Shown: in pieces, positions 7,763 through 19,711 of the stretch
How positions within the stretch are numbered: the first letter of the stretch is position 1
Layout of the letters: each line of letters begins with the position of its first letter
NCBI GenBank assembly: GCA_947631205.1
Contig: CANRKL010000008.1
Coordinates: 1-35,993 of the forward strand
Length of the DNA stretch: 35,993 nucleotides
Reading direction: 5' to 3'
From: an uncultured Bacilli bacterium
GTDB lineage: Bacteria; Bacillota_I; Bacilli_A; RF39; UBA660
Translations under genes and position numbers: made by a program
Notes under the pieces: model-generated
What the model saw: only the letters and a program-made list of their open reading frames with translations
Told to the model about the DNA's origin: nothing
Database searches by the model: none

Positions 7763-7816
7763 CAATAAAAAAAAGTTGAATTAAATCAATAAAAAAAAGT
7801 TGAATTAAATCAACTT
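7763..7816 (-). terminator. Duplicated intrinsic terminator after the Cys-rich surface gene
   Basis: A 27-base direct repeat occurs at 7763-7789 and 7787-7813 (24-base period). On the minus strand the first-met copy forms AAGTTGA (7816-7810), loop TTTAAT, TCAACTT (7803-7797), followed by an eight-base T run, a classical intrinsic terminator that starts at the stop codon of the upstream gene. The second copy gives only a weak 4-bp stem but keeps its own T8 run. Confidence 0.8.
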
Positions 7817-10800
7817 ATTTCCATGATGGTCCAACACCATCTTCTTTACTTAAACATTCTCCATTAGGACAATTTGTTGTATCACTCCATAAAGTCCACT
7901 CTGTACTTCTAGCATTTTCCGTAAAGAATCCTTTGCTTTCACCATCATCTAAGAATGAACTACGACACATAACACTATACTCTATACCATTAATTACAAC
8001 ATTGCTACATTTTAAAGCACTGTTTCCATTTTCATCAGTTGAATTAGTGTAAGTACCAACATTTCTATCATATTTTTTCATATTATTAATATTTGTTGGT
8101 GTAATTGTATATGACGCAATTAACTTTTCTTCACCTGAAGAAGTACTTTCTTCTATTTCTCTTTTGGTAACTGCAGCTTTAGATATTGCACTTCCAAGGT
8201 CATCCCAGTTATATCCTAATGCTCTATCATTAGGGAATAAATTAGCTTGAGATACAGTTCGATAACTAAATGTAGTATTTTCTCCATCAAACACACAGTT
8301 CTTACATCTTAATGGACAAGATGGTCCATCACATTCTTCAACTATTTCACAATTATCATCTTCACATTTAATTTCACAATCATCACAGTTATTAATGTAA
8401 TGACATACATAACTTCCGTTTGCAGTTGATGTAATACCACTTAATTTTTCTTCTTTAGATAATCCACATTTCAAATTATCATTTAATTCATTATAAGCAG
8501 TTAATACACTAGATTCACTACCATTAATTAATCTTCCTAACTCTCCATTAACATTATCTTGACCAATATTTTCAAAAGTAAATGTAAATGGGAATACTCC
8601 TTTACCTGTAGTCATTTCAACTGGTAAGGCATCACTTGGTAATCTTGAATAAATACAGTCTCCATTATTTGGACATAATTCAGAATCAACTTTTATAGTT
8701 CCATATTGAGTATATGTTGAAAAATTATTATTTGGTTTATAAGTAGCACTATAAATCTTTGTTTTTCTTATCCATTTAACATTACTTACTTTTGCATCTT
8801 TTTGACTACATCCACTAGAATCACAACTTGTATATTTAACATTTTTATATAAGTTAGCATTAATATCACTTAAATCATCTACTTGAGAAGTAATAGTTTC
8901 CCCAATACAATTATATTTACTATCAATATCACCTAAACAATAATTATTATCAATTTTCTTAGTTAAAGATGATTCTACTCTTGATAATTCACCATTTAAT
9001 AAATTTTCTTTACTATAATCTTCATCATATGTAAATAATATCTTTGGTTCAAACTTCATATCATTTGTCCACAATGTTGTACAACTATTATAATTTTTAA
9101 TTGCTGTCTCAATATCACTAGCAGCAGATTTCCAAATTTTTTCACTGTCTTCAATTAAATGTTTAACCTGACTCTTGTTTACAGTTTCATTGTAAGACAC
9201 ACTTTGTGTTGTACCACTATTATAATCATAAGCCATTGCACTCCAAGTATAAGCTTTATCCTGAGAGTCTTCATTATTTCCAGTAAAATCAGCTGTATTA
9301 GTTAGAGATAACCATTTATTCCATTCATTCCATGCACTATAAGATTTTTCTTTAAGTGTATTTAAATCAGCTAAGAATTTTTCTTCATCAATTGGTTTAT
9401 CTGGATTATCTTTACTACTTACATAACAATCTCTTTGACCACTTATTTGTGAAGATAATGTAAAGTATCCACCACTTGTTGTATATCTAGCTGTTGGTAA
9501 ATCAAAATCATATTTTTCTTTACACCATACTTGACAATATGGATTACCACCAGATATTTTATTATCTAATTCTGTAAGTGCTGCATATGACTCATTATTT
9601 TGGTCTTTACCACCTAATACACAAGTCTTTACATTATTAGCAACTTTATTACATTCACTAGATACAGTATTAATATCACTAATACTTCCTGTTATTGTAT
9701 TTTCTGGGTCAAACTCAGAGCAAGCATTTGGTACTGAAACTGTCGCATTACAATTTGGACATTTTGTATTATATTCTTGACATTCAGGACTATTATCTCC
9801 AGAACTTTCTTCACATTTTTTACGAAGAGGTTCACAAACACAATCTAAATTGTAATCTTCTTCACTACACACTCTACCACTTACATCAGGGTCAGATGAA
9901 TTACAATAATATACTGTCTTGTTATCTTCTTCTTTTTTAACACATATATTTACACATTGTTGACGATATATTTCTGGAGTTGTTACATTACCATCTTTAT
10001 CATAATATACTCCATTAACTTTCTGACATTTTCCACCATTTGGCATACATTCTGAAACATTAGGACAATCATATTTTTTAACTTTTTCTGTATCATCTGG
10101 AGAAAAAACTTCTTTTTCTTCTTTAACTTTTCCATTAGAGTCAGTAATTGTCTTTGTATTAACAAAATTACCTGTCCATTGACCACTTGACATTTCACAA
10201 GTACAAACCTCATTTTCTTTAGGTTCATTTCCACCGTCATCGTCGTCGTCATCATCATCATCATCAATATTTAATTCATATGGAATAATAGTTTCAAAAT
10301 CATCACTTACATCTTTTATTAATAAGAAGTTTTGGAATCCACCTACAGTAGGTTCTACTTCCCATAAATGACTAGCAGGAATATATATATCATTAACACC
10401 AATCTTAAATGTTAATACTTTTTTAACTTTACTTACAGTAAGACTTTGACCATTTAGTGCTTTAACAGTTATTACAACATCAGCTTTTTTACCTTTAACA
10501 TTTGTAATAGTAGTTCCACACCAATAACCATTATTATCACTTTCACAACTAGCTTTGGCATCATCCCAATAAACTTCAGATATACTATTAGCATTTAAAG
10601 TGAATCTAATTTTCATCATGTCACGATTTTCATCATCTTTAGTAATTTCAATTTCTGGTTTAGTATTAGTAATCTTCTTTGAAGCATCCCAAATATAGCC
10701 TTCTTCAACTAATTTTTGATAAGCTTTTTTATTAGTTCCTAATTGTCTCTTATATTTAGTAAATTTATTAGCTACATCTATTGCTTTTTTAGCAATTCTA

Positions 10801-11483
10801 GCTGCTTCTTTTACAGTTGCATTATTTTTATCCCAACCAGCTTTATTATCCCCTCTTGATACAAGATGTTGATTATCTTCTAACCAATCAACCTTTGTCC
10901 ATGGTCCACCTTCATCTATGAAGCCATACTTCATATATATCCATCTTACAACCATCATAATAATTTGACGTTGTCTTAAAGCATCAGCATATTGTACAGT
11001 ATTTCTTTTATTTGCCCAGCCAGCTAAAACTTTAAATGAATTATCATAAATTTTATTAGTTCTAATAAATTCTTGATAAGCCCAAACTAAGGCCATCTCA
11101 AATTCACTTCGATTTTCATTCTTACCCTTGGCATTTATAGTCGGGTCAATTACTCTCTTAACATTAAAAAATGCACGAGAATCCTTATGAGGCGATACAC
11201 AAATACCTATACCATCAAGCTCACTACCTACAATTTCATACTCTTCCATGTTGTACCATCTACCTGAGGTCTGAGTACCAATATAACCTTCCCATTTAAC
11301 ATCACTATACACATTATAACTACCATTATTATTTGCCATAGCTTCATAAGTACGAACTTTCTTTATAGATGGTAGTCCATCATTAGTTGTTAAATCCTGC
11401 GTAATTTTAGCAGAAACCGTTTTAAATGATACACCAAGTACAATAAATAAAATCAAATTAATTTTTAATAATTTTTTTAACAT
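7815..11483 (-). CDS. Large Cys-rich secreted surface protein
   Basis: I do not recognise a named family. From the ATG at 11483 (nine bases after AAGGAG; the upstream ATG at 11489 is too close) the protein has about 1223 residues. A signal peptide covers roughly 1-25 (basic MLKKLLK, hydrophobic core, then TVSA). Residues to about 400 are Cys-poor and mixed alpha/beta. An uninterrupted run of ten Asp follows near residue 407, then a long Cys-rich stretch with clustered CxC, CxxC and CxxxxC spacings (for example VCTCEMSSG, LDCVCEPLRKKC, CDDCEIKC, CPLRCKNC). No C-terminal membrane anchor, LPxTG motif or SLH repeat is seen. It lies 11-20 bases after the type I membrane protein gene and is followed by a strong terminator. 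Disulfide-stabilised extracellular modules, possibly Ca-binding at the Asp tract, are inferred. Confidence 0.6.
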   Translation of the reverse strand: MLKKLLKINLILFIVLGVSFKTVSAKITQDLTTNDGLPSIKKVRTYEAMANNNGSYNVYSDVKWEGYIGTQTSGRWYNMEEYEIVGSELDGIGICVSPHKDSRAFFNVKRVIDPTINAKGKNENRSEFEMALVWAYQEFIRTNKIYDNSFKVLAGWANKRNTVQYADALRQRQIIMMVVRWIYMKYGFIDEGGPWTKVDWLEDNQHLVSRGDNKAGWDKNNATVKEAARIAKKAIDVANKFTKYKRQLGTNKKAYQKLVEEGYIWDASKKITNTKPEIEITKDDENRDMMKIRFTLNANSISEVYWDDAKASCESDNNGYWCGTTITNVKGKKADVVITVKALNGQSLTVSKVKKVLTFKIGVNDIYIPASHLWEVEPTVGGFQNFLLIKDVSDDFETIIPYELNIDDDDDDDDDDGGNEPKENEVCTCEMSSGQWTGNFVNTKTITDSNGKVKEEKEVFSPDDTEKVKKYDCPNVSECMPNGGKCQKVNGVYYDKDGNVTTPEIYRQQCVNICVKKEEDNKTVYYCNSSDPDVSGRVCSEEDYNLDCVCEPLRKKCEESSGDNSPECQEYNTKCPNCNATVSVPNACSEFDPENTITGSISDINTVSSECNKVANNVKTCVLGGKDQNNESYAALTELDNKISGGNPYCQVWCKEKYDFDLPTARYTTSGGYFTLSSQISGQRDCYVSSKDNPDKPIDEEKFLADLNTLKEKSYSAWNEWNKWLSLTNTADFTGNNEDSQDKAYTWSAMAYDYNSGTTQSVSYNETVNKSQVKHLIEDSEKIWKSAASDIETAIKNYNSCTTLWTNDMKFEPKILFTYDEDYSKENLLNGELSRVESSLTKKIDNNYCLGDIDSKYNCIGETITSQVDDLSDINANLYKNVKYTSCDSSGCSQKDAKVSNVKWIRKTKIYSATYKPNNNFSTYTQYGTIKVDSELCPNNGDCIYSRLPSDALPVEMTTGKGVFPFTFTFENIGQDNVNGELGRLINGSESSVLTAYNELNDNLKCGLSKEEKLSGITSTANGSYVCHYINNCDDCEIKCEDDNCEIVEECDGPSCPLRCKNCVFDGENTTFSYRTVSQANLFPNDRALGYNWDDLGSAISKAAVTKREIEESTSSGEEKLIASYTITPTNINNMKKYDRNVGTYTNSTDENGNSALKCSNVVINGIEYSVMCRSSFLDDGESKGFFTENARSTEWTLWSDTTNCPNGECLSKEDGVGPSWK
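10233..10262 (-). repeat. GAT/GAC triplet repeat coding Asp10
   Basis: On the minus strand ten consecutive Asp codons read GAT x5, GAC x3, GAT, GAC inside the Cys-rich surface gene. It lies at the border between its Cys-poor N-terminal part and its Cys-rich part. Such a tract can change length by slippage in units of one residue without breaking the frame. Confidence 0.85.
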
Positions 11484-11503
11484 AATCATCAACTCCTTAA
11501 ATA

Positions 11504-12364: not shown

Positions 12365-12871
12365 TTAAAAATTATTATATTTTTTACATTTTTCTTCCAA
12401 AAGTTTAAAATTACAACATCTTTTAGCAATATTTAAATCTAATGTACCATTTAAGTATTTATCATATAACTTTTTTGATTTTTTATATATTTTATCACTA
12501 TATCGATTCAACCAATATATTTGCTGTTTTAAAAGTTTAATGTATTTTTCTTCTTCCAAAGTTAAACATTCTTTATCTAAATCCAATTTAACAATATTTT
12601 TTTCAGTAACTGGTAACATATTATTAAAATTAATAGCACCCAATTTGCCATTATTAATTTTCATAAAATCCAATTTTGTCTTAAGTTTAAGATGTTTTGG
12701 CTTAGGGCTAGATAAAGGGGCAAAATATTTACAGTTATCAACTTGAAACAATATTCCTACAAATGGTCTCAATTCTTTTTTTCCATAATTATAAGGAACT
12801 TTACTATCAAATTTTCTTAAATAATTGCAATATTTTGCATCTAACTTAACCAATATTAATTTTTTAGACAT
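12365..12871 (-). CDS. toxN: Type III toxin-antitoxin endoribonuclease toxin, ToxN/AbiQ family
   Basis: The 168-residue protein matches the ToxN pattern along its whole length: YLRKFDSKVP at 17-26, RPFVGILFQV at 35-44, KYFAPLSSPKPKH at 48-60, then LGAINFNNMLPV, a helix with YWLNRYSDKI, and the C-terminal CCNFKLLEEKCKKY. Ser55 and Lys57 in the SSPK motif correspond to the Ser/Lys of the 'LTSPK' active-site loop of Pectobacterium ToxN. Length equals that of known ToxN (about 171). ToxN cuts A-rich RNA and is held inactive by the pseudoknot repeats of ToxI. Those repeats and a terminator lie directly upstream on the same strand, the standard gene order. SD AAGGTG precedes the ATG. Known members abort phage infection; that role here is inference. 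Confidence 0.93.
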   Translation of the reverse strand: MSKKLILVKLDAKYCNYLRKFDSKVPYNYGKKELRPFVGILFQVDNCKYFAPLSSPKPKHLKLKTKLDFMKINNGKLGAINFNNMLPVTEKNIVKLDLDKECLTLEEEKYIKLLKQQIYWLNRYSDKIYKKSKKLYDKYLNGTLDLNIAKRCCNFKLLEEKCKKYNNF

Positions 12872-12910
12872 AACATCACCTTAATATTGTATTATACACT
12901 AAAACTAAAA

Positions 12911-12936
12911 TTAAAACTAGAGTGTGCTCTCTAGTT
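12911..12936 (-). terminator. Terminator between toxI and toxN
   Basis: On the minus strand AACTAGAG (12936-12929), loop AGCACA, CTCTAGTT (12922-12915), then TTAATTTT. The 8-bp stem followed by a T-rich tail lies exactly where type III loci carry the leaky terminator that sets the excess of antitoxin RNA over toxin mRNA. Confidence 0.88.
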
Positions 12937-13047
12937 CTTTTTTAAGTTCCTCTTATGGTGGGAATCACCGCTTTTTTAAGTTCCTCTTATGGTGGGAATC
13001 ACCGCTTTTTTAAGTTCCTCTTTTTAGTGGGAATCACTAGCTTTTTT
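12937..13047 (-). ncRNA. toxI: ToxI antitoxin RNA (three tandem repeats)
   Basis: Read on the minus strand, this holds three head-to-tail units starting AAAAAAGC and ending AGAGGAACTT: 13047-13012 (36 bases), 13011-12978 (34) and 12977-12944 (34), then a further AAAAAAG. Each unit holds a short inverted pair (GGTG...CACC in units 2-3; TAGTG...CACTA in unit 1) around ATTCC, which suits the hairpin part of a ToxI pseudoknot. The change in unit 1 is compensatory, so pairing is conserved. The A6 run at each border fits the A-rich sites at which ToxN processes its antitoxin. The terminator and toxN follow directly. Confidence 0.9.
12944..13047 (-). repeat. 34/36-base tandem repeats of toxI
   Basis: Units 2 and 3 are identical over 34 bases; unit 1 differs at the stem (CTA/TAG instead of CGG/CC) and is two bases longer. 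There are no spacers, which separates this from a CRISPR array. Confidence 0.9.
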
Positions 13048-13049
13048 AT

Positions 13050-13123: not shown

Positions 13124-13384
13124 TTATTTTGATAGCAAAACTAATCTTGTCCCATTTCTAATATCTGTATTATATAAAAGATAATTCCAATTATAAATTT
13201 GTAATGTATCTGCATTATATAACTTACAATATTTTTCAATTGGAAAATCCCCATTACTTAACTCATTAATTCCTTTATTTAATAAATTAACAATCGTCCC
13301 AATTCTCTTACTAATAGGTAAAAACATATTAAACTTCATATTAATTTCTGGAACAATAACACAAACATTTACTTTATCATTCAT
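13124..13384 (-). CDS. esaB: YukD/EsaB-like ubiquitin-fold T7SS protein
   Basis: The 86-residue product has the size and pattern of YukD/EsaB: an N-terminal beta strand (VNVCVIVPEI), a second strand, a helix (RIGTIVNLLNKGINEL), and the closing block NTDIRNGTRLVLLSK. That block is like the 'L.d..I.nGd.L.l' ending of ubiquitin-like YukD. In T7SSb, EsaB is a cytosolic partner or regulator of the machinery. It directly follows essC with a 12-base gap containing its SD, so both are probably in one transcript. The identification rests on fold pattern plus neighbour. Confidence 0.78.
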   Translation of the reverse strand: MNDKVNVCVIVPEINMKFNMFLPISKRIGTIVNLLNKGINELSNGDFPIEKYCKLYNADTLQIYNWNYLLYNTDIRNGTRLVLLSK

Positions 13385-13396
13385 AACTAATACCTC

Positions 13397-16300
13397 CTAT
13401 AAAAATTTAATATGACTAACATTTTGATTATTTACAGCTGTAACTGTTCCATTACCATAACTCTTACTATCATAACGTATCTCTACTTCAAAAGTACTTT
13501 GTGAATCAAAATTCTTACCTAACCATAATCCTTTATTTCTCTTAAAGTAATTATCTAAATTACTATCTTCAATTTTCTTAATTCCCTCTTCATTATCATA
13601 AATTACATATTTAAAGTTATTAAGAGCTTTTGAACTTAATATTAATTCATCAATTGAAATAACACTCTCATCATCATGTTTTTTATTTACTAAATGATTT
13701 TCTAATCCCGCATATCCTAAAAAGATAATGACAAAATTAGTATCTTTAGGATTTGTTTGATATTTAATAACATTATTATATATTGTCTTAATTACATCTT
13801 CAAATCCTGTATCATAATATTTTACATCACTTAAATAATTTAATTTTAAATCATTAATAGAATTTATAACAATAACTTTCGTATTATTTATTTTACTTAA
13901 TATATGAGTTAAAACTGGAAAAAACATTTTAGCCGTTATATGATTTTCTGAACTAATAATATTAAGTAATCCATTAAAATCATAATAATTAACTTGAGCT
14001 GTTTCAACATTTACTCCTAATGGAACATTACTTAAACTATTTATCTTATCTTCTAATAATTCAAAAGTAACTTCCTCAGGAATAACAGGAACCTTCTTAG
14101 CTCTTTTTTTAATATATAAACATAACTTACTTAATACATAATTTAAATTATTTTCATAAGCATCTTTAAATAATAAGCTAACTTGAAATTCATAAGGTAC
14201 ATCATTAATTGCAATTATTCCTCTACCTGGATTTTTCTTTGGAATTATATTAGTATTAAAATATAGGCTATAATCAGTTGAATCAAGCATATTAAGCATA
14301 ATTTTCTTTGGAAAATTATTTTCTAAATTATAACCTAAAGCATTTGTTAAGCTAGATGTTAAAATAAATATTATTCCAGCTTTCGCACAGTTTCTTGTTA
14401 AAGACCCCATATCACTATCAACAATTTCTTCAAAAGCTTCTTTAAATGTTTCAAACTGATTAATAAATACTAAAATAGTTGGAAAAGGTGCCTTCCCATT
14501 TAAAATATCATTATCAAAACTACCACCATGAGTACTATAATAAGCAAAACGTCTATTTTTTTCATCTTGTAACATATAAAATAAAAACTTAATTTTATCT
14601 GGGTCATTAGAAGTCAATACTTCTCCCACTTGTGGAGCATTTTGAAATTCTTTTAATTTTTCTAATCCTAAATCAATTATATATATATTAACTTCATCAC
14701 AATTATGATTAACTATTGTTGAAAAAATAATTGTTGAAAGTAATGTACTTTTACCAGAACCACTATTTCCTACTATAAAAGTATTCCCACAATAAGACAA
14801 AGGAAGAGAAACATAACCTTGATTTTGATTTTCTGGATCATCATATTCACCTATAATTGGTTCAATTATAAATGGTCTTGGTTTCAAATTATATTTTTTA
14901 ATTAATGGTTCATAATATATTTCACTAGGAATATTTTCTTTCCACAAAGAAGAAAAATGAATATTTTCTGAAACTGCTAAATCATATAAATACTTAACAA
15001 TATTTGTAATCTGGTCTCCAAAGTTTTCTTTTTCTTCCCTCTTAACATCTTCATTGATAACTTTTAATACATTACCATTATTAGACAATACTAATAAATC
15101 ATCTTCTACTTTTCTTGATATAACATCAGCCGGACTATATTTTGCCCCAGCATAACCAGATTGACCAAGTTCAAAAAGTTCATCATTCCCAACTTGTAAA
15201 TAAAACCGTCCTGCATCAGTTAAAAAAGCCGCATCATTTCTTTTTAATAATTCATTACTATCTTCAGTAGTTTGAACTTTTAAACACACCCTAAATCTTG
15301 TATTTGACCAAATTTGTTCATTAACTACACCACTAGGCTTTTGAGTTGCTAAAATTAAATGAACCCCTAAACTTCTTCCTATTCTTGCTGCCGAAACTAA
15401 CTCATCCATAAAATCTGGTTGAGAAGCTTTTAACTCGGCAAACTCATCAGAAATAATAAACAAATGAGACATTGGTTCATCTACTTTACCTTCTCGGTAC
15501 AATCTTTGATATTTATAAATATCAATTGTACTTTCATCATTCTTCTCTCTTGCATAATTAAAAACCCTCTGTCTTCTTTGTAATTCACTTTTAATTGATG
15601 TTAAAGTACGATACATTTCACTTTTATCTAAGTTAGTAATTGTTCCAACTAAATGAGGAATCTTTACTTTGGTTTCTCTATTTTCAAAAGCTAAAGCTAA
15701 TCCCCCACCTTTATAATCTATTAAAACAAATTGAACTTCATAAGGATGATAATTAACTGCTAAAGATAAAATATAAGTCATAATAAATTCTGATTTTCCA
15801 GAACCAGTAGAACCCGCTATTAAACCATGAGGTCCATGATACTTTTCATGTAAATCTAACTCTACTAACTTATTATTCTCTTTAACTCCAATTGGTGTTT
15901 TTAAACTAATTGTTGGATTATTTGATTTCCATCTTGATAAAACATTTAACTGTTCAATTCTTCCTACATTAAATAATTCTAAAAAAGTAACATTACTAGG
16001 TATTCCATATTCACTCTTTCTTATATTAACAGGAATATTAGCAATTACTTTAGCTAAACTATTAATATCTAAATCATTAATATAAGATGTTGCAAAAACA
16101 ATTTGTTCTTCTTCTTTTATATTTTTTTCTAATATAACCCCTTTATTTTCAAATATTTGAATTAAAGTTTCAAATTTACTTGGAATATTTTTAATCGAAT
16201 TTTCAAATATCAAAAATGAAAAACCATAATTATCTTCTTCAAATATTTTATTTACTAAAGATAATTCTCTTGCTAAAGAATAATTATCCGTAACAATTAA

Positions 16301-17944
16301 ATAATATGTTTGAAAATCTAAATACTTTTTATCTTTACCATTCTTTTTTCTATTATCATATTCCTGTTCTAAATATAAAGATAATTGAGCTACTTCTTCT
16401 TCATTACTGGCAAAAAAACGAAAATCATAATTATCATTCCAACTATGAGGACAATATTTCATAAATTCCCAATTTTTTTCATTTTCTGCACTAGTAATTG
16501 TAACTATTTTTAAATCATTTCCACTATAAAAATATAATAATTGTAACATAATTGATTTAATATAATCACTACTATTCTTGCCATCAATAACGATTGGTGT
16601 AATTCTATTATTTAAAAGTGAATAAGCAATTGGGACATTTTGTAAAAGATATTTTTTATTAGAAGTTTCTAATACTAAATTAAGTAACTCATCATCATCT
16701 AAAGTAAAACCTTTCTTAGGAGCTTCTATTTTAATTTTAGCTGGAATATTTCCATATCCTAAATTAATTGTTAAAAAATCATTATCAAAGATTTCTCTAC
16801 TCCATACATCTTTACAATTATTATTAATGTTAGTAACTATTTTTTCTAAAGATAAATTATTATTTTGTAAAATATTAGTTTGCTTAATTATAATTTGTTC
16901 TATTGCTAATTCTTGTTCTTTAACATATTTAGTATATTTCTTTTTTCTAATTTTTTCTCTTTTATTAGCATTACTTTTCTGCCAAGCATCCATAAGCATT
17001 GGTAAAAATAAACCTGTTAGCAACATAACTCCAAAAATTACAAATTCCAATATCAAAGAAAAAGCGTCACTTTGCCCATTTATAAAACTTCTTATTGTAT
17101 TTATTAAAGTAATACCTGAAGTAAGTGTCAAAATAGCTGATGAACCAACTGTAAAAATTACTGGTACCTTTTCATAATGTTCCTTAGTAGGTGGTTCATC
17201 AAACTCTACAACCACTTCTTCTACTTCTTGTTTTAAGTGTGGAGTATGAACAAAAAGTTGACTATCAGTATATAACTTAACTTTCTTTTCTAAATCATTA
17301 ACTGGTGTAATAGTGGGTGGTACTTCATTTGATGTTCCATCGACACTAGAAAAACCACTTATTGATATTTTTCTATCAAATGGGTCAATAAGAACAAAAC
17401 TTTTCATAAAAATAATCTTAATACCCTTAATAAAAATTACATCTCCAGCTCTTAACTTTTCATTACTATAAACAAAAGAATTCAAATAAGAAGAAGAAAC
17501 AACTGAATCACATCTACTAACATAAAAATTATTTCCATCACTTTTAATTAATACAGATAAATTATTAGTATCTAAAATTCTAACATTACAATCACTAGCA
17601 CTACCTATTTTTATCTCTTGTAATCCTAATATACTATACTTTAAACAATCAACAAAATCTGCAACCGCATAAACTGTAACTGATTTAACCATATCTACAA
17701 ATCTAATATCAAAAGACATATTCTCTTGTAATTCTACAAATGGTCTTGCACTTCCATTATAATTTATATTTAATCTATTTTCTTTTGATACTACCCATTT
17801 TCCATTGGAAGCTAAAATATTTAAAGTTTCAGAATAAAAAGAATTATCAACATATAAATCAAAATTAATTGTAAATGTTCCAAGAACTTTACTTGGCATT
17901 GAAAAATATTTTATTTCTCTATCGTCACATACTAATAATTTCAC
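13397..17944 (-). CDS. essC: Type VII secretion FtsK/SpoIIIE ATPase EssC
   Basis: EssC is the membrane ATPase motor of type VIIb secretion. The 1515-residue protein has the full family layout: two N-terminal FHA-like domains (about 1-200), a short linker, two membrane helices (about 261-287 and 295-319), and a coiled region. Three FtsK-like domains follow. Domain 1 has Walker A GSTGSGKS at 711-718, LIDYKGGG at 741-748 and Walker B LFIISDEF at 828-835. Domain 2 has Walker A GNSGSGKST at 1059-1067, but its Walker B-like segment reads VFINQF. Domain 3 (from about 1330) keeps the fold pattern but has no P-loop, as expected for a degenerate third ATPase. The start is GTG with AGAAGGG eight bases before it. 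It has its own promoter and is followed by esaB. Confidence 0.95.
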   Translation of the reverse strand: MKLLVCDDREIKYFSMPSKVLGTFTINFDLYVDNSFYSETLNILASNGKWVVSKENRLNINYNGSARPFVELQENMSFDIRFVDMVKSVTVYAVADFVDCLKYSILGLQEIKIGSASDCNVRILDTNNLSVLIKSDGNNFYVSRCDSVVSSSYLNSFVYSNEKLRAGDVIFIKGIKIIFMKSFVLIDPFDRKISISGFSSVDGTSNEVPPTITPVNDLEKKVKLYTDSQLFVHTPHLKQEVEEVVVEFDEPPTKEHYEKVPVIFTVGSSAILTLTSGITLINTIRSFINGQSDAFSLILEFVIFGVMLLTGLFLPMLMDAWQKSNANKREKIRKKKYTKYVKEQELAIEQIIIKQTNILQNNNLSLEKIVTNINNNCKDVWSREIFDNDFLTINLGYGNIPAKIKIEAPKKGFTLDDDELLNLVLETSNKKYLLQNVPIAYSLLNNRITPIVIDGKNSSDYIKSIMLQLLYFYSGNDLKIVTITSAENEKNWEFMKYCPHSWNDNYDFRFFASNEEEVAQLSLYLEQEYDNRKKNGKDKKYLDFQTYYLIVTDNYSLARELSLVNKIFEEDNYGFSFLIFENSIKNIPSKFETLIQIFENKGVILEKNIKEEEQIVFATSYINDLDINSLAKVIANIPVNIRKSEYGIPSNVTFLELFNVGRIEQLNVLSRWKSNNPTISLKTPIGVKENNKLVELDLHEKYHGPHGLIAGSTGSGKSEFIMTYILSLAVNYHPYEVQFVLIDYKGGGLALAFENRETKVKIPHLVGTITNLDKSEMYRTLTSIKSELQRRQRVFNYAREKNDESTIDIYKYQRLYREGKVDEPMSHLFIISDEFAELKASQPDFMDELVSAARIGRSLGVHLILATQKPSGVVNEQIWSNTRFRVCLKVQTTEDSNELLKRNDAAFLTDAGRFYLQVGNDELFELGQSGYAGAKYSPADVISRKVEDDLLVLSNNGNVLKVINEDVKREEKENFGDQITNIVKYLYDLAVSENIHFSSLWKENIPSEIYYEPLIKKYNLKPRPFIIEPIIGEYDDPENQNQGYVSLPLSYCGNTFIVGNSGSGKSTLLSTIIFSTIVNHNCDEVNIYIIDLGLEKLKEFQNAPQVGEVLTSNDPDKIKFLFYMLQDEKNRRFAYYSTHGGSFDNDILNGKAPFPTILVFINQFETFKEAFEEIVDSDMGSLTRNCAKAGIIFILTSSLTNALGYNLENNFPKKIMLNMLDSTDYSLYFNTNIIPKKNPGRGIIAINDVPYEFQVSLLFKDAYENNLNYVLSKLCLYIKKRAKKVPVIPEEVTFELLEDKINSLSNVPLGVNVETAQVNYYDFNGLLNIISSENHITAKMFFPVLTHILSKINNTKVIVINSINDLKLNYLSDVKYYDTGFEDVIKTIYNNVIKYQTNPKDTNFVIIFLGYAGLENHLVNKKHDDESVISIDELILSSKALNNFKYVIYDNEEGIKKIEDSNLDNYFKRNKGLWLGKNFDSQSTFEVEIRYDSKSYGNGTVTAVNNQNVSHIKFL

Positions 17945-18069: not shown

Positions 18070-18098
18070 TTGACACCCTTATAGTTTTATGATAATAT
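18070..18098 (+). promoter_or_regulatory. Promoter of the structured RNA
   Basis: Plus-strand TTGACA (18070-18075) is a perfect -35. The -10 is either GATAAT (18091-18096, 15-base spacer) or TAATAT (18093-18098, 17-base spacer). Transcription would start near 18104 and run away from essC. No SD or ORF follows, but a run of hairpins does. Confidence 0.65.
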
Positions 18099-18103
18099 GA
18101 AGA

Positions 18104-18421
18104 TGTCATAAGATATATGATATGTTAATTTATATTAATTTATAGATTAACGATGGTTTTTGTTCTTATGATTGTTGGTTTAATACTTCGACGCCGCAAT
18201 TTTAATTGCTTTATTAGGTTCTAATCAAACTAGGTGTACACTGTTTATTTAGTCGAGGTATTAAAAGTGAGAGATGGACTCATTCGGATATTTAACAGCC
18301 TATAACTGTTATAAATCTTATAGTAAAAACTCGTAGCATTGTAAAGAATAGCTAACTTTATGAAGGCTTTAGAAAATTTAGTTTTTAGTGGAAAGCGTGA
18401 TTAACTTTCTGCTTTTTTATT
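18104..18421 (+). ncRNA. Unidentified structured RNA in the T7SS locus, about 315 nt
   Basis: No reading frame of note lies in this 600-base gap. The plus strand after the promoter holds several stems. (1) An 11-bp hairpin at 18124-18134/18141-18151 with a 6-base loop and one U-G pair. (2) A 14-bp stem at 18179-18192/18252-18265 with one G-U pair. It encloses a 6-bp hairpin GCAATT/AATTGC (18196-18209) and a second arm (18222-18251), giving a three-way junction. (3) AGTGAG/CTCATT at 18266-18284. (4) AACAG/CTGTT at 18294-18310, extended by ATTT/AAAT past a two-base bulge. (5) A weak GC-poor hairpin before a T6 run at 18413-18418. It is more GC-rich than the flanks. It shows none of the hallmark motifs of tmRNA, RNase P or SRP RNA that I know. 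Function unknown; a trans-acting RNA is likely since no plus-strand gene follows. Confidence 0.65.
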
Positions 18422-18515: not shown

Positions 18516-18546
18516 AAAAATAGATTATATCAACAAATCTATTTTT
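18516..18546. terminator. Bidirectional terminator after the T7SS substrate operon
   Basis: An 11-bp perfect stem AAAAATAGATT (18516-18526) / AATCTATTTTT (18536-18546) with a 9-base loop overlaps the stop codon of the acidic protein gene. T-rich tails exist on both strands, so it can end both the minus-strand operon and any read-through from the structured RNA. Confidence 0.75.
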
Positions 18547-18841
18547 AAAACATATCATTTAAATCATTTATTTTTTCTTCTTCTAATGTATCATCATAAT
18601 TATTTTCACTTGATACAATTTCATCATAATTAGAATCCTCAAAAGATTCATCAAAATTTTCAGTTTTTGGTAAATTAATTATATCATCAACATTAATATT
18701 CATAATATCTAAATTATTATCATTAAAATATTGAAATATTTTTTTTACTTCATCAGGTAAAGAATCATCTATAATTAATTTCCCAGAAGAATCAATATAC
18801 TTTGCTATTTCAGCTTTAGCTTTTTCATTAAGTTCAAACAT
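18545..18841 (-). CDS. Small acidic protein of the T7SS locus
   Basis: I do not recognise this 98-residue protein. It has a helical N-terminus (FELNEKAKAEIAKYI), then a strongly acidic, Asn/Asp/Glu-rich C-terminal half ending NDLNDMF. No signal or membrane segment is seen. I take the ATG at 18841; a TTG at 18856 overlapping the upstream TGA is possible but has no better SD. It is the third gene of the operon with the WXG100 protein. Its size and acidity suit a secretion chaperone or adaptor, but that is inference from context. Confidence 0.65.
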   Translation of the reverse strand: MFELNEKAKAEIAKYIDSSGKLIIDDSLPDEVKKIFQYFNDNNLDIMNINVDDIINLPKTENFDESFEDSNYDEIVSSENNYDDTLEEEKINDLNDMF

Positions 18842-18852
18842 AGTTACTTCTT

Positions 18853-19275
18853 TCAAATACTATAATCTTTATTATTTGGTTCAACCTTTGTTCTATTAGA
18901 ATCAACAGTTGATGTTGAAGATGCTGCCTTAGAAGTAGCATCAGATACTGAAGTTTTGGAACCACCAGCTTTTGCTGCTACAGCTTGAGCATTTACTCTT
19001 TCCATTTCTTCAACTGCATATGCAATTTTATCAACAGTATCTAATATTAGTCCATAATTACTTATTTCTTCATTTATATCTTTAATTGAATTAAAATAGA
19101 AATACTTAGCTTGATTTCCATTCCAATATGGACCATTCGCGTCTCCCTTCATCATTTCTTGAATATGCATACTAAAACTTTCAATTCCAGCAGCTATATT
19201 TTTTAAAGGTTCATCAGCTTGTCTTATAGAATTTTTTAATTCTTGTATTCTTGCACCTTGAGTATTTCCTGCCAT
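18853..19275 (-). CDS. WXG100-family T7SS substrate
   Basis: The 140-residue protein has an N-terminal helix, a Trp-Asn-Gly turn at 51-53 (PYWNGNQAKYF) and a second helix, the helical-hairpin layout of WXG100 proteins. A YxxxE motif (Tyr86-Glu90) follows at the end of helix 2, like the export signal known from ESX substrates. A Ser/Thr/Ala-rich tail of about 45 residues is longer than usual for the 100-residue family. It lies between another small helical protein and the acidic protein, upstream of essC, which supports a role as T7SS substrate or partner. Stop is TGA. An SD (GGAGGA) lies in the 19-base gap after the preceding gene. Confidence 0.82.
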   Translation of the reverse strand: MAGNTQGARIQELKNSIRQADEPLKNIAAGIESFSMHIQEMMKGDANGPYWNGNQAKYFYFNSIKDINEEISNYGLILDTVDKIAYAVEEMERVNAQAVAAKAGGSKTSVSDATSKAASSTSTVDSNRTKVEPNNKDYSI

Positions 19276-19294
19276 AATTTATCCTCCATTCTAA

Positions 19295-19672
19295 TTAATT
19301 TCCTAAGTTTTGGTTTAATTTTTCTATACTGTCTTTAACCATATAATATGTATCAAAACTCTTTTGAAAATCATTTCTTCTGCTACGAACAGAATCTATT
19401 TGATTTTGACATTTTCTTACTGCTCTACTACAACCATCTATTAAATTTTGACCATGAAGATGAGCTTTAGATTTACTCAAAGCAGCCTTTACATCCTTAA
19501 ATCCTTGAATTATCTTACGATAATCATTCATAATGTTATTGTAGCATTCATTAGCCTTTGCATCATTAATATCAATACTTCCTGAATTAACACTTTCAGA
19601 TACTTTACTAATTTTATATTGATTTAAACTACTAGCCTCTTTAGCTGTAATCATTTTAGAACGTTTTGCCAT
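19295..19672 (-). CDS. Helical-hairpin WXG100-like protein
   Basis: I choose the ATG at 19672 (nine bases after AAAGGAG) rather than the upstream start at 19711, giving 125 residues (MAKRSKMITAKE). The sequence is nearly all helix, Lys/Ser/Asn-rich, with a break near ALSKSKAHLHGQNLIDGC between two helices. This resembles WXG100 or T7SS adaptor helical hairpins, but the Trp of WXG is absent (LHG in its place). It heads the three-gene operon with the WXG100 and acidic proteins and could form a heterodimer with the former. It contains three Cys, unusual for the family. Confidence 0.6.
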   Translation of the reverse strand: MAKRSKMITAKEASSLNQYKISKVSESVNSGSIDINDAKANECYNNIMNDYRKIIQGFKDVKAALSKSKAHLHGQNLIDGCSRAVRKCQNQIDSVRSRRNDFQKSFDTYYMVKDSIEKLNQNLGN

Positions 19673-19711
19673 TCTTAAATTCTCCTTTCTATTATAAACC
19701 AATAATAACAT

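Follow-up and report, generated by a model that had tools for sequence, protein, structure and literature searches.

A covarying stand-alone RNA that accompanies one type VII secretion clade, and its candidate self-pairing palindrome

In a 35,993-nucleotide stretch of DNA from an uncultured Bacilli bacterium (hereafter, the window), we identified a structured RNA of about 315 nucleotides that lies among the genes of a type VII secretion system (T7SS) and almost certainly represents a new family of stand-alone structured RNAs linked to one T7SS clade. As judged by sequence comparison, the RNA is a stand-alone unit with a covarying structure, is linked to a single clade of the ATPase EssC and carries a palindrome in which base changes are compensated. 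The best explanation, to which we assign a probability of roughly 50%, is that it is a self-associating RNA that acts in trans as a partner of the T7SS. No RNA component of a T7SS is known to us, and our search of the literature for RNA as part of this system, mostly without subscription journals, found none, a result that argues only weakly for a true absence. Should the link prove functional, an RNA aspect would be added to a secretion machine that is studied for its part in competition between bacteria. The few RNAs that are thought to self-assemble would also gain a tractable example of small size (~315 nt), and the compensated changes at adjacent bases of the palindrome yield a prediction that can be tested directly.

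The RNA gene has a promoter and a terminator of its own. The promoter consists of TTGACA (18070-18075), a 17-nt spacer and TAATAT (18093-18098) with an extended TG, and is the joint best promoter of the region. TTGAC- promoters occupy the equivalent place in seven of the nine other homologues scanned (the remaining two stretches began too late), and one likewise lies upstream of the RNA in G028 and G282; all members whose upstream region was covered have both their own promoter and their own terminator. The initial annotation had described a TTGACA promoter, an 11-bp hairpin, a 14-bp stem with one G-U pair, further hairpins and a T6 run, all of which are present. Its extent of 18070-18421 holds with the promoter counted in; the transcribed unit is approximately 18105-18418, and the ~315 bases that it had called free of open reading frames contain none longer than 23 amino acids. 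The elements are as follows.

18070-18098, + strand: sigma-A type promoter of the RNA (TTGACA, 17 nt, TAATAT)
18105-18418, + strand: RNA gene; start inferred 7 nt past the -10 box, end at the T-run
18105-18172, + strand: 5' hairpin P0 (arms 18105-18113/18164-18172; inner 11-bp hairpin 18124-18134/18141-18151)
18179-18265, + strand: multibranch junction closed by the 14-bp helix P1 (arms 18179-18192/18252-18265; one G-U pair; arm swaps as good, 0/20,000)
18196-18209, + strand: small hairpin inside the P1 junction
18217-18231, + strand: hairpin P2 with conserved loop CUAAUCA (18221-18227); stem covaries, loop UAAUC in 10 of 11 members
18234-18241, + strand: palindrome GUGUACAC, proposed RNA-RNA dimerisation site
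18268-18282, + strand: hairpin UGAG-AGAUGGA-CUCA, the most conserved element
18287-18317, + strand: hairpin of variable length between members
18327-18375, + strand: AAACUCG and hairpin P6 with the 9-nt loop AAUAGCUAA, then AGAAAA (arm swaps as good, 0/20,000)
18349-18354, + strand: hexamer palindrome UAGCUA in the P6 loop
18387-18418, + strand: intrinsic terminator (hairpin 18387-18413) with loop CGUGAUUAA and T6 tail; conserved GAUU(A) loop (arm swaps as good, 0/20,000)

By these comparisons the RNA belongs to no known RNA family, in line with its first description as unidentified. No family in Rfam 15 reached its gathering threshold in the window, including tmRNA, RNase P, 6S, SRP, raiA, OLE, ROOL, GOLLD, riboswitches and ToxI. 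With E values of up to 10 allowed, the best match was psRNA6 at 0.18, which is non-significant and far below the psRNA6 threshold, and Rfam searches over the RNA in the homologues gave no match. ARAGORN found neither a tRNA nor a tmRNA in the window. Because just 5 of the 37 congeneric genomes carry the RNA, it is not a housekeeping RNA. The raiA motif RNA, or ModT (RF03072), is known from more than 2,500 species and is not linked to secretion (PMC11706538). Both are mid-sized, conserved, stand-alone structured RNAs of Bacillota, whereas the RNA described here is linked to a T7SS clade and lacks an Rfam match even at E values of up to 10.

The family comprises 11 members (the query and 10 homologues) from six genera in one family of uncultured gut Bacilli, in records titled uncultured Bacilli, Clostridia or Tenericutes, and the RNA is ~310-450 nt in length across them. 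BLAST against relatives recovered clear copies in two genomes of the same genus (G009 and G003) and then in G028 and G001. Covariance models R1 (the core) and R2 added G169, G366, G153 and G361, then G517; G282 was reached through a search for a neighbouring acidic protein. A scan of a class-wide sample for the RNA returned no member besides the query, BLAST against plasmids and phages gave nothing convincing, and a pattern scan of viral contigs gave no true member.

Several candidate matches were rejected as homologues. BLAST matches in G042 and G002 are chance similarities, and covariance-model matches in G220, G444, G303, G434, G226 and G443, together with most of those in L126 and L153-L155, fall inside coding genes. 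The viral pattern matches, including L115, are also due to chance: the P6 loop is absent, the context is coding or the match was selected by the pattern itself.

Folding of the single sequence is modestly unusual (minimum free energy -67, z -2.2; none of 100 shuffles as good). With the fold score only mild, the case that the RNA is real rests on comparison, that is, on its homologues and their strongly covarying stems. From the 5' end, the members share P0 (a 5' hairpin likewise appears when further members of the genus are folded), the P1 junction holding a variable hairpin, P2 and the palindrome, and the GAG-AGAUGGA-CUC hairpin; there follow a variable hairpin, AAACUCG with P6 and AGAAAA, a second variable hairpin and the terminator with loop GUGAUUA. 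The conserved bases are those of loops and junctions, and the stems vary between members. The covariation check proposed with the first description was carried out on the homologues, and four helices covary: in P1, P2, P6 and the terminator, the arms of each member pair far better than swapped arms, with none of 20,000 swaps as good in the set of 11 members and 0-2 of 20,000 in a set of 10. These tests ignore phylogeny, and G153 and G366 are near sisters; read in that way, the result for the four helices is evidence of covariation. No one register of the terminator alignment suits all loop lengths.

Two of the conserved loops probably pair with each other. The terminator loop (U)GAUUA could pair with the P2 loop UAAUC(A) in every member, mostly through invariant bases, and the swap test is not significant as a whole (p = 0.086). 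In G282 the two loops have changed together, to AUCGGU and ACCGAU, and are still complementary over 6 bp. A kissing contact between the P2 and terminator loops would make the RNA fold compactly.

The T7SS genes around the RNA in the window are listed below.

13124-13384, - strand: YukD/EsaB-like small protein, by its position after essC and its size
13397-17944, - strand: EssC ATPase of the linked T7SS (TIGR03928 T7_EssCb_Firm, 7.6e-264; clade assigned from the tree)
18545-18856, - strand: small acidic protein, marker of the T7SS clade, convergent with the RNA (alignment of homologues)
18853-19275, - strand: WXG100-like small protein (WxG-type motif, size, synteny)
19295-19711, - strand: second WXG100-like small protein (same basis)

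From motif, size and synteny we infer that the products of 18853-19711 are WXG100-like; Pfam does not call either of them. At a homologous locus, the protein that takes the place of the YukD-like one (L299:1740-1988) matches YukD weakly, with an E value of 0.005 that does not reach the curated cut-off. The acidic protein, which has no match in Pfam or NCBIfam, is recognizable by the motif LPeDlKxafxYfN and a C-terminal LNDLF-like end, and every copy found belongs to a T7SS locus of a single EssC clade.

T7SS genes (EssC, YukD-like or WXG100-like and, usually, the acidic protein) adjoin the RNA in 10 of its 11 members, and EssC is present somewhere in all 10 RNA-bearing genomes checked. When 43 EssC proteins were placed in a tree, the 10 that are RNA-linked grouped with four rows with the acidic protein in a single clade (support 99); the 29 EssCs that fall elsewhere include none linked to the RNA. 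The exception in the neighbourhood count, G361, has the RNA between the rplL region and rpoB together with a UPF0236 (ISLre2-type) transposase (L100 3682-6890). The same rplL-rpoB site in G282 holds the trio of WXG-like and acidic genes, essC, YukD and the RNA in that order. As G282 has a T7SS at this shared site and G361 a transposase instead, G361 appears to have lost its T7SS there and kept the RNA. That loss bears on the view that the RNA is part of a selfish or mobile element that sits in T7SS loci by chance. Such an element would fit the patchy spread (5 of 37 congeners) and the transposase beside the G361 copy; however, the loss accounts for G361, no transposase was noticed beside other copies, plasmids, phages and viral contigs gave no convincing match and the linkage tracks one EssC clade, so that we consider this origin very improbable.

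Some of the loci have further peculiarities. G153 (L190 3448-12974) carries two adjacent T7SS loci of two clade subtypes, with the reading frame of the first essC interrupted, and the trio of WXG-like and acidic genes is tandemly duplicated in G009 (L031 1972-4230). In the window, a protein of 1225 amino acids near the T7SS genes (7815-11492) has no match in Pfam or NCBIfam.

The element that points to self-association is the palindrome directly after P2. The 8-mer is GUGUACAC in five members, GUGCGCAC in two and AUGUACAU, AUGAUCAU and GUGUGCAC in one each, all of them self-complementary; the remaining member has a palindrome of six bases, GUGCAC. Taken as a 10-mer, 51 of 55 cells are paired, compared with 38.9 when halves are swapped, and none of 50,000 swaps was as good. 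The two central bases are complementary in all 11 members, with five pair types (shuffle p = 0.0007). These statistics ignore phylogeny, and the register in G361 was set by eye. The central bases are adjacent and so cannot pair in cis, yet they are complementary in every member, which points to homodimerisation. The hexamer in the P6 loop is a second candidate contact: it is UAGCUA in 10 of the 11 members and UAGCUG in G517, which is self-complementary through U-G wobbles. Because UAGCUA is almost invariant, covariation is uninformative about self-pairing of this loop. We place self-association of the RNA at even odds. It would proceed through the palindrome and perhaps also through the UAGCUA hairpin loop, and would give a homodimer or a larger assembly.

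A symmetric sequence could also be kept by proteins. The RNA might be a monomer that binds a protein, either of the T7SS or regulatory, and thereby sequesters or assembles it; the palindrome would then serve as a symmetric binding element for protein or, within the gene, as a DNA operator. The conserved AGAUGGA and AAACUCG loops look like protein or tertiary contacts, and a dimeric DNA-binding protein would likewise preserve a palindrome. The site, however, is fairly constant, directly after P2 and inside the RNA junction in every member and away from the promoter, and five pair types at its centre are more than is usual for an operator core. We regard this account as somewhat unlikely.

Adjacent-base covariation in symmetric loops has been argued to reflect intermolecular kissing in OLE (L9.3) and GOLLD (L21a) by Kretsch et al. 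(2025), who describe OLE, GOLLD and ROOL as ornate homo-oligomeric RNAs (PMC12286853). Like these, the RNA studied here is a stand-alone structured bacterial RNA that has a self-complementary element with adjacent-base covariation and candidate kissing loops. Unlike them, it is clearly smaller, matches nothing in Rfam and is linked to a T7SS clade, and its oligomerisation is a prediction. The P6 loop AAUAGCUAA also has the loop design of the HIV-1 dimerisation initiation site, a likeness of mechanism and not of descent. That site is a 9-nt hairpin loop with a 6-nt palindrome.

The arrangement of the RNA relative to the T7SS genes bears on its mode of action. In genus g1 the acidic gene and essC flank it, and it is read from the strand opposite to theirs. 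In G001 its neighbour is again the acidic gene, with essC located on a different contig. The RNA comes after YukD in G169 and G282, in the same orientation, and has the trio on one side and YukD on the other in G153; in G517 a gene for a HerA-like ATPase separates it from the WXG pair. Such variation in strand and position argues against a fixed cis element or an antisense RNA and for action in trans, and the trans-acting reading proposed at the outset is supported by this and by the gene's own promoter and terminator.

Many small RNAs (sRNAs) of Bacillota act as base-pairing regulators of translation, and a stand-alone RNA with exposed, conserved loops next to genes that it might control invites the same interpretation, namely pairing with T7SS mRNAs to regulate their translation. 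In a test of T7SS translation starts against other genes, however, complementarity to the former was not above that to the latter (p = 0.28), C-rich seeds complementary to the Shine–Dalgarno sequence are nearly absent, and typical sRNAs have much less structure and fewer conserved loops than this RNA. We consider antisense regulation distinctly unlikely. The suggestion that the RNA possibly regulates or accompanies the T7SS divides: that it accompanies the system is supported, and the regulatory half found no backing in this one test, with no excess complementarity and almost no seeds.

Under our preferred explanation, that of a self-associating partner RNA, the assembly would act in trans as a scaffold, a ribonucleoprotein partner or a dosage regulator of the T7SS, and not as an antisense regulator. 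For a direct role in or on the secretion system, we would put the probability a little below an even chance. A more far-reaching version, which we think unlikely, is that this T7SS subtype includes the self-assembling RNA among its components, in a structural or a regulatory capacity: two palindromic contacts per molecule would join copies into dimers or polymers, on which EssC or the small substrates would be scaffolded, and this branch of the T7SS would be a ribonucleoprotein machine.

The T7SS locus of the window also contains a type III toxin–antitoxin module (12365-13048) with ToxN (PF13958, 2e-49). A 34-nt tandem repeat of 3.2 copies precedes toxN and is ToxI-like, although no Rfam ToxI model matches it. 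ToxI consists of ~35-nt units that are repeated in tandem upstream of toxN. The presence of this ToxIN-like module in the same window raises the idea that the RNA is itself an antitoxin, a toxin-linked RNA or an exported RNA cargo of the T7SS locus, and a structured RNA with a protein partner would resemble ToxI. The RNA, in contrast to ToxI, is one long multibranched molecule, and 18105-18418 contains no ToxI-type tandem repeats; toxN was not noticed in the neighbourhoods of other members in an unsystematic look, and a function as exported cargo is without support. We give this idea hardly any weight.

Four members of the EssC clade (G040, G420, G279 and G229) have no recognizable copy of the RNA and carry only other structured RNAs, which are promoter-driven and lie in large intergenic gaps of their T7SS loci (L151 4870-5675 and 10380-10574; L296 6431-6899 and 7947-8336; L297 1189-1845; L298 1-780). 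Several contain a GAG-[purine-rich]-CUC hairpin, AAACUCG or UUAGCUA. AAACUCG occurs in three of them and is rare in the background, at 0.034 per kb per strand, and two structured RNAs in G040 resemble each other. The RNAs of these four genomes may be distant relatives within a wider superfamily.
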